DNA from: an uncultured Acidimicrobiia bacterium
Lineage (GTDB): Bacteria > Actinomycetota > Acidimicrobiia > Acidimicrobiales > CAIXPF01
Direction of reading: 5' to 3'
Assembly (NCBI GenBank): GCA_903921205.1
Contig: CAIXPF010000203.1
Coordinates: 1-44,834, forward strand
DNA: 44,834 nucleotides
Shown here: positions 17,950 through 40,301 of the stretch, piece by piece
Layout: each line of letters begins with the position of its first letter
Numbering within the stretch: position 1 is the first letter of the stretch
Notes under the pieces: generated by a model
What the model was told of the DNA's origin: nothing
Database searches by the model: none
What the model saw: the letters and a program-made list of their open reading frames with translations, nothing else
Position numbers and translations under genes: made by a program

Positions 17950-18498
17950 TCAGGTGTTCCAGGTGGTCGTCCGCTTGGGGACCGTCTGCCAGGTGGACGA
18001 CGTCGACGTCGACGTGCTGGTCGAACTCGAGGAGGTGGTCGACGTCGTCGAGGTGGTCGTGGTCGACGTCGGCACCGTCGGGGCGACCTCACAACGGTTC
18101 GCCAGGATTGCCTTGCCGGATGTCGTGAAGTTCCAGCCGATCACGTTCTTGTTACCGTACTTGTTGCTCTTCGGTGGCTTGTCCGGCGCGGGGATGATGT
18201 CACCCCAACTCGTCGCTTCCGCCCTCCACAGCCCGCCTGCTGCAGAGCCGAGGGCCTTCGACTGCAGGAAGTGGTCCCGCTCCTGATCCTTCCGCGACGC
18301 AACCTTCTTCGCCGAGCCGTCCGCCGAGGACCAACGGACCCGCATGAACGTGTAGGGATCGGCCGGATTGTCCGTCGCATGGCAGATCTCGGCGTAGCTC
18401 GAGCCCTTCTTCGCGCCCGCAACCGACGCTGCGGTCACCAGCAAGACGCACGCAGCCATCCCGGCCGCAACGGCTTTGACTCTCTTCGTGGCCTTCAC
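17950..18498 (-). CDS. Secreted ICHAT-motif protein with Ser/Thr-rich tail (paralogue A)
   Basis: 182 residues. Seen: a signal peptide (KRVKAVAAGMAACVLLVTAASVAGA), then EICHATDNPADPYTF, GDIIPAPDKPPKSN, and WNFTTSGKAILANRC. This motif order recurs in many secreted actinobacterial proteins with no known function that I can name. Two mature cysteines could form a disulfide. The last ~45 residues are Ser/Thr repeats ending TTTWNT. No sorting motif (LPXTG) or C-terminal membrane helix. Closest relative: the neighbour at 18946-19644, alignable over the whole core. The GTG start lacks a Shine-Dalgarno; TACCGT lies seven bases upstream. It converges on the LysM gene. Confidence 0.78.
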   Translation of the reverse strand: MKATKRVKAVAAGMAACVLLVTAASVAGAKKGSSYAEICHATDNPADPYTFMRVRWSSADGSAKKVASRKDQERDHFLQSKALGSAAGGLWRAEATSWGDIIPAPDKPPKSNKYGNKNVIGWNFTTSGKAILANRCEVAPTVPTSTTTTSTTSTTSSSSTSTSTSTSSTWQTVPKRTTTWNT

Positions 18499-18504
18499 AC
18501 CACG

Positions 18505-18570
18505 GACGGTACGCGTCTGGATCGTCTGAGGCGATAGGCCCTTAGGCCCCGGGACCCATCCCCCATCCGG
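18505..18570 (-). promoter_or_regulatory. Shared 38-bp element and -10 box of paralogue A
   Basis: Positions 18533-18570 match 34 of 38 bases of 19679-19716 upstream of paralogue B, and both begin exactly 35 bases before their GTG. The element contains TAGGCCC twice at 8-base spacing (plus strand 18535 and 18543). A TANNNT box, TACCGT on the minus strand, lies 21 bases downstream and seven bases before the GTG. This looks like an activator site just upstream of a leaderless promoter. Confidence 0.6.
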
Positions 18571-18945
18571 AGGAGGTCAACCAGCACCAACCGCCCGGAC
18601 CCAACTCGCCCGGCGCCTCCCGCCGATGGCCCCGGCGGGGAACCTGCCGCGGTTCGCCGCAGCGCGTCGCCGCGACCCTTCGCCGCCGCCGGCCACCGCA
18701 AGCAGCTTGCGACCGACGGGTGGCATGGTCCCAACCGCGGGCCCTGAAGCCGGCTGACACCCGGCCCAGCGGACCGTCAGGCAGTTCTGTCCGGTCGCGC
18801 TCCGCTTGACGGTCCAGCCGGCGGGGTGGCCGCCGAGTCGGCTGCACGCGGGCACCCGCTCACCAGCGCTGGACCGCAGCGCGCCACCCGACCGCGATCC
18901 GCGGCGCTCAGACCTTCGGTCCCGGCCGGCCGCGGCCGGCACCGG
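18571..18945. other. Intergenic stretch without a gene
   Basis: GC-rich, with no convincing coding region, RNA gene or third paralogue. It holds an inverted repeat with 9-bp perfect arms (GGACCGTCA at 18771-18779 and its complement at 18807-18815, 27-base loop) and a 7-bp-arm palindrome at 18925-18940, six bases after the stop of paralogue B. The latter may aid termination. No T-run accompanies either. Confidence 0.5.
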
Positions 18946-19644
18946 TCACGAGTTCCAGGTCGTCGGCGGAGCACCCGCCGTCGTTGTGGTGACACCGCCT
19001 TGATTGGGCCCCACCACCGAAGTCGTCGTCGTCGCACGGGTCGTGGTCGTCGAGGACGTCGTCGTCGTCGCACGGGTCGTGGTCGTCGTCGCACGAGTCG
19101 TGGTCGTCGTCGACGAGGTCGTTGTCGTCGCACGGGTCGTGGTCGTGGTCGTCCCGCCGGTTTGAGGGTCCACCACCGAAGTCGTCGTGGTCGCCGGTGT
19201 CGTCGTGGTCGTGGGCGAGGTGGCAGTGACCTGGCAGTTGTTGTCCAAGATCGCCTTACCGGCCGTCGTGTAGTTCCAGCCGATCACATTCTTGTTGCCG
19301 TACTTGTTGCTCTTCGGCGGCTTGCTCGGCGCTGGGATGATGTCACCCCAACTCGTCGCACCCGCCTTCCACAGCGCGCCGGCGACAGGACCCGAACCCT
19401 TCGACTGCAGGAAATGGTCCCGGTCGAGGTCCTTCCGTGACGCCACCTTCTTCGCCGACCCATCGGCGGCGGCCCAGTCGACGTCCATCGCCGTGTACGG
19501 AGCGGACGGATCACCTGTTGCATGGCAGATACCAACGGTGTCCGCCGAACCCTTGACCGCGCCGGCCGCCGAGGCTGCGGCCACCAGCAGGACGCAGCCG
19601 GCCAACCCGAACGCAACCGTTCTGAGACTCTTCGTGGCCTTCAC
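18946..19644 (-). CDS. Secreted ICHAT-motif protein with Thr-rich tail (paralogue B)
   Basis: 232 residues. Same plan as paralogue A: signal peptide (LRTVAFGLAGCVLLVAAASAAGA), GICHATGDPSAPYTA, ASRKDLDRDHFLQSKGSG, SWGDIIPAPSKPPKSNKYGN, WNYTTAGKAILDNNC, then about 90 residues dominated by threonine with four RATTTT-like repeats, ending TTWNS. The tail is twice as long as in A because of repeat expansion. The GTG start has no Shine-Dalgarno; TACGTT lies seven bases before it. The conserved core followed by a stalk-like, probably glycosylatable tail suggests a secreted or loosely wall-bound surface protein; function unknown. Confidence 0.78.
   Translation of the reverse strand: MKATKSLRTVAFGLAGCVLLVAAASAAGAVKGSADTVGICHATGDPSAPYTAMDVDWAAADGSAKKVASRKDLDRDHFLQSKGSGPVAGALWKAGATSWGDIIPAPSKPPKSNKYGNKNVIGWNYTTAGKAILDNNCQVTATSPTTTTTPATTTTSVVDPQTGGTTTTTTRATTTTSSTTTTTRATTTTTRATTTTSSTTTTRATTTTSVVGPNQGGVTTTTAGAPPTTWNS
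19024..19152 (-). repeat. Degenerate repeat array encoding the Thr-rich tail
   Basis: Four copies of a roughly 21-base unit containing CGCACGGGTCGTGGTCGT (plus-strand reading) encode RAT followed by threonines. Unit spacing varies and all variants stay in frame. A simpler GTC/GAC-rich array encodes the shorter tail of paralogue A at about 17994-18078. Confidence 0.75.
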
Positions 19645-19650
19645 ACCACC

Positions 19651-19716
19651 GAACGTACGCCCACCGGTGGACGGTGACGATAGGCCCTTAGGCCCCCGGT
19701 CCTATACCCCATCCGG
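19651..19716 (-). promoter_or_regulatory. Shared 38-bp element and -10 box of paralogue B
   Basis: The element at 19679-19716 matches that of paralogue A with four mismatches and identical spacing to the GTG. Here a partial dyad is clearer: ATAGGCCC and GGTCCTAT (plus strand) flank the second TAGGCCC. TACGTT on the minus strand lies 21 bases beyond the element and seven before the GTG. The first and last 10 bases of the element are identical in both copies. Confidence 0.6.
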
Positions 19717-40228: not shown

Positions 40229-40301
40229 GGGGCTATAGCTCAGGTGGAAGAGCGCTTGCATGGCATGCAAGAGGTCGAGGGTTCAAGTCCCTCTAGCTCC
40301 A
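40229..40301 (+). tRNA. tRNA-Ala (anticodon GGC)
   Basis: 73 bases fold into a full cloverleaf: acceptor GGGGCTA/TAGCTCC with the G3-U70 pair that identifies alanine tRNA, D arm GCTC/GAGC, anticodon stem CTTGC/GCAAG with loop ATGGCAT (anticodon GGC), variable loop AGGTC, T arm GAGGG/CCCTC with TTCAAGT, discriminator A. The 3' CCA is not encoded. CCCC-TTC-GGGG at 40409-40419 is a weak downstream stem. Confidence 0.97.

Follow-up and report, generated by a model that had tools for sequence, protein, structure and literature searches.

A conserved 38-bp element, probably a cis-regulatory site, upstream of two exported paralogues in an uncultured acidimicrobial bacterium

In this study, we asked what kind of site is represented by a 38-bp element that stands in front of two neighbouring genes for exported proteins in an uncultured Acidimicrobiia bacterium, and how far it reaches beyond them. 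The stretch of DNA analysed (44,834 nucleotides, referred to as the window) makes up the whole of contig C203; its genome, G000, comprises 4.36 Mb on 208 contigs. Four members of the genus, G000 to G003, were examined, G001 being the sister species of G000. The two genes, here called P1 and P2, lie adjacent and in tandem and their proteins are 67% identical; read by eye, they carry a hydrophobic signal at the N-terminus and an ICHAT motif and end in a tail rich in Ser and Thr. Neither protein matched any Pfam or NCBIfam family at E ≤ 1, and the AlphaFold model of P1, with a mean pLDDT of 41.8, was unusable. Directly upstream of P2 and on the same strand lies a gene for a BldD-like regulator, whose product remains under the NCBIfam cut-off for BldD (145.8 of 250 bits); the same gene neighbours the P locus upstream in G000, G001 and G003. 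The coordinates of all features are collected in Table 1.

Table 1. Features of the P locus in the window (distances count back from the GTG of the gene named)
Feature	Position	Strand	Basis
P1, exported protein, 182 aa, GTG start	17950..18498	minus	open reading frame
TACCGT, proposed -10 box, 7 nt before P1 GTG	18506..18511	minus	sequence
Element copy 1, 38 bp, -72 to -35 of P1 GTG	18533..18570	minus	model score 44.7 bits (training copy)
P2, exported P1 paralogue, 232 aa, GTG start	18946..19644	minus	open reading frame
TACGTT, proposed -10 box, 7 nt before P2 GTG	19652..19657	minus	sequence
Element copy 2, 38 bp, -72 to -35 of P2 GTG	19679..19716	minus	model score 45.4 bits (training copy)
BldD-like regulator, directly upstream of P2	19977..20522	minus	PF21179, E 1.4e-19

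A search of 397 genomes of the order with the P proteins returned G000, G001, a remnant in G003 and three weak partial matches (G264, G273 and G287), whose loci do not contain the element, and a search of a named genome collection gave matches solely on two contigs of G001.

Conservation and internal structure of the element

The initial annotation had described two nearly identical copies at equal spacing, followed by diverged DNA up to the start codon, and on both points the description holds. The two copies have 34 of 38 bases in common at the same distance from the GTG. When the region from -72 to -33 is considered, 35 of 40 positions are identical, compared with 13/40 in the upstream flank (-112 to -73) and 8/18 in the spacer between -32 and -15, while identity rises again to 11/14 in the last bases before the start codon (-14 to -1). 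The difference between the element and the upstream flank plus spacer is significant (Fisher p = 2.5e-7). The coding sequences of the two paralogues have diverged to a dS of 0.595, with 37 of 56 fourfold-degenerate sites identical, and the element is somewhat better kept than their silent sites (p = 0.014).

In G001 the element is found at the same distance from the start of the syntenic gene. The copy in G003 is altered but recognisable, lies one base further out, and precedes a decayed P gene which, after the BldD-like gene, retains just the start and the signal peptide (L015 1501-1590). This copy is identical to each of the others at 28/40 positions, compared with 11-12/40 in the flank upstream, and relative to copy 2 of G000 the spacer is identical at 11/18. 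Across the four copies, invariant columns amount to 25/40 in the element, 5/40 upstream of it, 5/18 in the spacer and 9/14 between -14 and -1. When element and flanks were compared in the six pairs of copies, p values of 2.5e-7, 5.7e-6, 2.8e-4, 0.028, 2.8e-3 and 5.2e-4 were obtained, the weakest of which (0.028) belongs to copy 2 of G000 and the copy of G001, where identity in the flank upstream (35/40) comes close to that in the element (37/40). The initial annotation would have been refuted by relatives with diverged copies only, and this outcome was not observed, although the G003 copy differs from each of the others at 12/40 positions, and the sample consists of four P copies in three species, one of them preceding a broken gene.

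In the P gene of G001, stretches resembling P1 alternate with stretches resembling P2 (L007 1-365 and the end of L008), which is a trace of recombination between paralogues; the gene sits at a contig break, so that its copy number there may be different. Since the paralogues recombine, part of the identity between copies 1 and 2 may be due to conversion. G001 also has a 15-bp tandem repeat, AACCATGCCGGCTCG, in 9.8 copies, in the DNA that separates the BldD-like gene from the P gene (C7, L007 509-655); by eye, it is absent from the corresponding place in the window.

Direct repeats of TAGGCCC and a partial dyad had been proposed as the internal structure of the element. The repeat does occur twice, 8 bp apart, but the period has no special standing: autocorrelation gives 8 bp no special rank, and a period of 7 lies slightly above it in all four copies. 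The dyad, centred at -48.5, is indeed partial, with 9, 9 and 10 of 14 pairs in copy 1, copy 2 and G001, respectively; in G003 8 of 14 pairs are formed at this centre and another centre (8/11) ranks first, all of these being raw counts. In G001 (GATAGG/CCTATC) and G003 (GATGGG/CCCATC) the outer half-sites are perfectly complementary, with changes on both sides, and in each copy of G000 (GATGGG/CCTATC and TATAGG/CCTATC) they contain one mismatch. A structured RNA element was considered and rejected, the folds of the four copies scoring z values of 0.35, -0.35, -0.53 and -1.90 against shuffles. At gathering scores, Rfam returned nothing in the whole window but a tRNA gene at 40229-40301.

Promoters of the leaderless type

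Leaderless bacterial genes have been described as having a TANNNT box whose first T lies about 12 bp before the start (Zheng et al. 2011, PMC3160421). In both promoters of G000 such a box spans -13 to -8 and is separated from the element by 21 bases, as first described. Its first T is at -13 in all four P promoters, the box of G003 being TACCGT. None of six Shine-Dalgarno-like strings was found between -20 and -4 in five promoters, that of the G002 gene described below included. The P promoters are also without a match to a -35 box; however, this tells little, since even in M. tuberculosis, according to a passage of Cortes 2013 (PMC3898074), a conserved -35 motif was not found. With regard to the -13 TANNNT box in four of four P promoters, the lack of a Shine-Dalgarno sequence and the GTG or ATG start, the promoters are like the leaderless actinobacterial promoters outlined in these two reports, whereas in G002 TANNNT is missing at this place before the gene that has the short element. 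It is probable that transcription of the P genes begins at the GTG or within a very short distance of it, in which case the mRNA would be leaderless. Taken with the fixed spacing and the conservation of the element, these features lend good support to the proposal, already made in the initial annotation, that this is a selected site at what appears to be a leaderless promoter.

Distribution of the element

It had also been suggested that the element might define a regulon, and here the searches speak to the contrary for this genome: only the two paralogues bear it. With up to three mismatches, the 19-mer core GGGGCCTAAGGGCCTATCG has just two sites in G000 and none in the reversed control. A sequence-only model built from the four copies and run on seven genomes at E ≤ 10 returned from G000 the two known copies and two weak matches (11.2 and 10.3 bits), and the latter were dismissed as coding DNA on reading by eye. 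Nor is the strict palindrome enriched, with 12 strand matches at up to two mismatches against 18 in the control, the 12 corresponding to six places, one of them within copy 1.

The element is bound to one genus within the class: among 395 genomes, three matches at E ≤ 0.003 were obtained, in G000, G001 and G003, in a search whose cut-off was set slightly below the E value of the G002 copy described below, and which by this cut-off and its stricter filters covers the full-length element only. Order-wide, the 19-mer with up to three mismatches is matched in 113 of 397 genomes; this scatter looks like chance, since control matches outnumber those of the pattern (28 and 17 by our own count in the first 41 genomes, G000 to G040). 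The exact 19-mer, among the matches listed, occurs only in G000 (two) and G001 (one), and there was no exact match among viral contigs. A literature search with the letters of the element gave no related paper, judged by titles.

Apart from the training copies, the best match to the model is TGGGGGATGGGTCCGAGGGCCCATCG in G002 (E 0.0034), the best match outside the genus in the seven genomes having an E value of 0.156. The G002 site is a shortened copy. It contains GATGGGTCCGAGGGCCCATC, a near-palindrome of 20 bp that occupies -62 to -43 relative to a GTG, the position at which the upstream part of the dyad sits in both copies of G000. The gene behind it is unrelated to P; its product is rich in Thr and Pro, seems to have a single membrane segment and matches no Pfam family. 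This gene is divergent to purK, and in G000, G001 and G003 another gene, purE by our own reading, is found there. When the start side of the G002 site was compared with the P promoters, shuffles were as good in 35 and 41 of 1000 cases for the two copies of G000 and in 535 of 1000 for G001. Due to this marginal similarity and the absence of TANNNT at -13, the start codon of the G002 gene, and hence the exact distance, is less certain. What is left of the regulon idea is thus the pair of P genes in G000 and, possibly, a single gene in G002.

The strict palindrome has 68 matches in G002 against 12 in the control, much of the excess coming from one dispersed repeat. A palindrome, GATGGGGTTGGGGCCCCATC, is present on many contigs of this genome (for example C138:47-66 and 134-153, and C416:2150-2169 and 2236-2255), and on three occasions two occurrences are spaced by 86-87 bp. 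This resembles a family of dispersed palindromic repeats, and the matches listed for the other six genomes do not include it.

Candidate regulators and comparison with known systems

The explanation that we regard as best, with a probability of roughly 0.6, is that the element is a private two-target site for a dimeric helix-turn-helix regulator, most likely an activator, at leaderless promoters. The regulator would read the half-sites GATRGGNCC and GGNCCYATC, which together make up a partial dyad of 28 bp that has its centre at -48.5 and contains GGCC units in repetition. Bound between -72 and -35, directly upstream of the place at which RNA polymerase would contact the -35 region of promoters that look to be of the housekeeping type (TANNNT), it could turn on both exported paralogues together. 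An activator fits because the site is just upstream of -35, the -10 box is at leaderless distance and a Shine-Dalgarno sequence is absent; the preference over a repressor comes solely from the position of the site, which fits both. As far as has been searched, the element is probably a genus-restricted cis-regulatory site, an ordinary kind of thing and a modest local switch.

A more specific proposal, which we consider doubtful, is that the element consists of overlapping boxes for DevR/DosR (OsdR type), in which case P1 and P2 would belong to a hypoxia or dormancy response under a DevR orthologue. Such an orthologue, 55-57% identical over its length, is encoded in G000, G001 and G002; in G003, the species with the broken P gene, it was not found (best match 30%). 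All three orthologues contain the stretch EKTVKNYVS of M. tuberculosis DevR, which we take to be the DNA-reading helix of this protein. In G000 the devR gene adjoins a gene for a PAS/HisKA_3 kinase, and a Usp gene is located about 2.6 kb away. In G003, where the P gene is reduced and no DevR orthologue was found, only one Usp region was found.

For the comparison of sites we used a matrix built on the 26 sequences of OsdR sites that are given in PMC5069765, with AGGGCCGATCGGCCCT as consensus. At the Usp genes near devR, OsdR-like boxes scored 15.6 in G000 (p 6.8e-6), 7.5 in G001 (p 4.3e-4) and 14.7 in G002 (p 1.4e-5), these scores coming from short stretches chosen by eye. Over the whole window, the matrix has its third-highest score (11.5) at 19673-19688, which overlaps copy 2 at its promoter-proximal end; the equivalent position at copy 1 is outside the top 15 scores. 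Within the elements of G000, however, the matrix reaches 6.18 in both copies (p 8e-4 per position, or about 0.02 over the element by our own arithmetic) and masking of the centre brings no improvement (p 1.3e-3); the palindrome of G002 scores 0.43 (p 5.8e-3), and the best of the copies is that of G003 (p 8.9e-5; p 1.4e-5 for a pair of boxes), which is the species without DevR. The core GGGNC-N4-GNCCC is fitted by the G002 site, but the copies of G000 deviate from it by one or two outer-base changes, G to A or C to T, and at 70% GC it is a common string, with three occurrences in the 44.8-kb window, none of which is the element. In DevR target promoters, sites are described as closely packed, the proximal one overlapping -35 (PMC3029386), an arrangement which would suit the P promoters. 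The element model gave no site at the devR loci, and a literature search returned no paper joining Acidimicrobiia, DosR and dormancy.

Somewhat less probable still is a repressor operator, where a protein, perhaps the BldD-like neighbour, would block the polymerase at the genes for the exported proteins until relieved. A dyad beside a promoter suits a repressor too, and the BldD-like gene is found upstream of the P locus in all three species that have one. The site, on the other hand, is upstream of -35 and covers neither the -10 box nor the start. Furthermore, the BldD-like gene is present in 12 of 13 genomes searched, G000 included, whereas the element is genus-bound, and the sole genome of the 13 in which this gene was not found is G002, which has the short element. 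The element also appears to be unlike the BldD operator. That the copies are alike merely as tandem duplicates exchanging sequence by gene conversion, the element being functionless, seems very improbable to us: the paralogues are adjacent and similar, the G001 copy is a mosaic and resembles copy 2 of G000 upstream nearly as much as in the element, but the conservation between the two G000 copies ends at either edge of the element, the spacer having diverged ahead of a conserved -10 box, and the element is kept in G003 against a diverged upstream flank and, in shortened form, before an unrelated gene in G002.

It is conceivable, although we consider it unlikely, that a genus-specific pair of regulator and site governs exported proteins from leaderless promoters, and that the site was taken over, or kept, by the unrelated membrane-anchored Thr/Pro-rich protein of G002, in a shortened form whose outer parts are perfectly palindromic. 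If this were true, the circuit would have stayed with a type of surface protein and not with a single gene family, and the regulator would have an undescribed specificity for GATRGGNCC/GGNCCYATC. The element does not reveal a large regulon; what it does provide for Acidimicrobiia is a well-bounded, conserved candidate regulatory site at a promoter that is probably leaderless, together with the DevR orthologue as a concrete candidate for the regulator and a clean bait to be used in pull-down experiments.

Among known systems, the boxes of DevR, DosR and OsdR resemble the element in their GG-CC half-sites with dyad symmetry and in a promoter-proximal part that abuts -35, and a DevR orthologue is encoded in three of the four genus members; the centre and the outer bases are different, and the matrix score within the element is low. 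A second comparison is with operators that have a single local target, such as that of MnoR in M. smegmatis, which is described as palindromic and as present in a single chromosomal copy (PMC11303327). This likeness is one of architecture and copy number, and in both respects the element agrees with such operators, being partly palindromic and present in one or two copies per genome.
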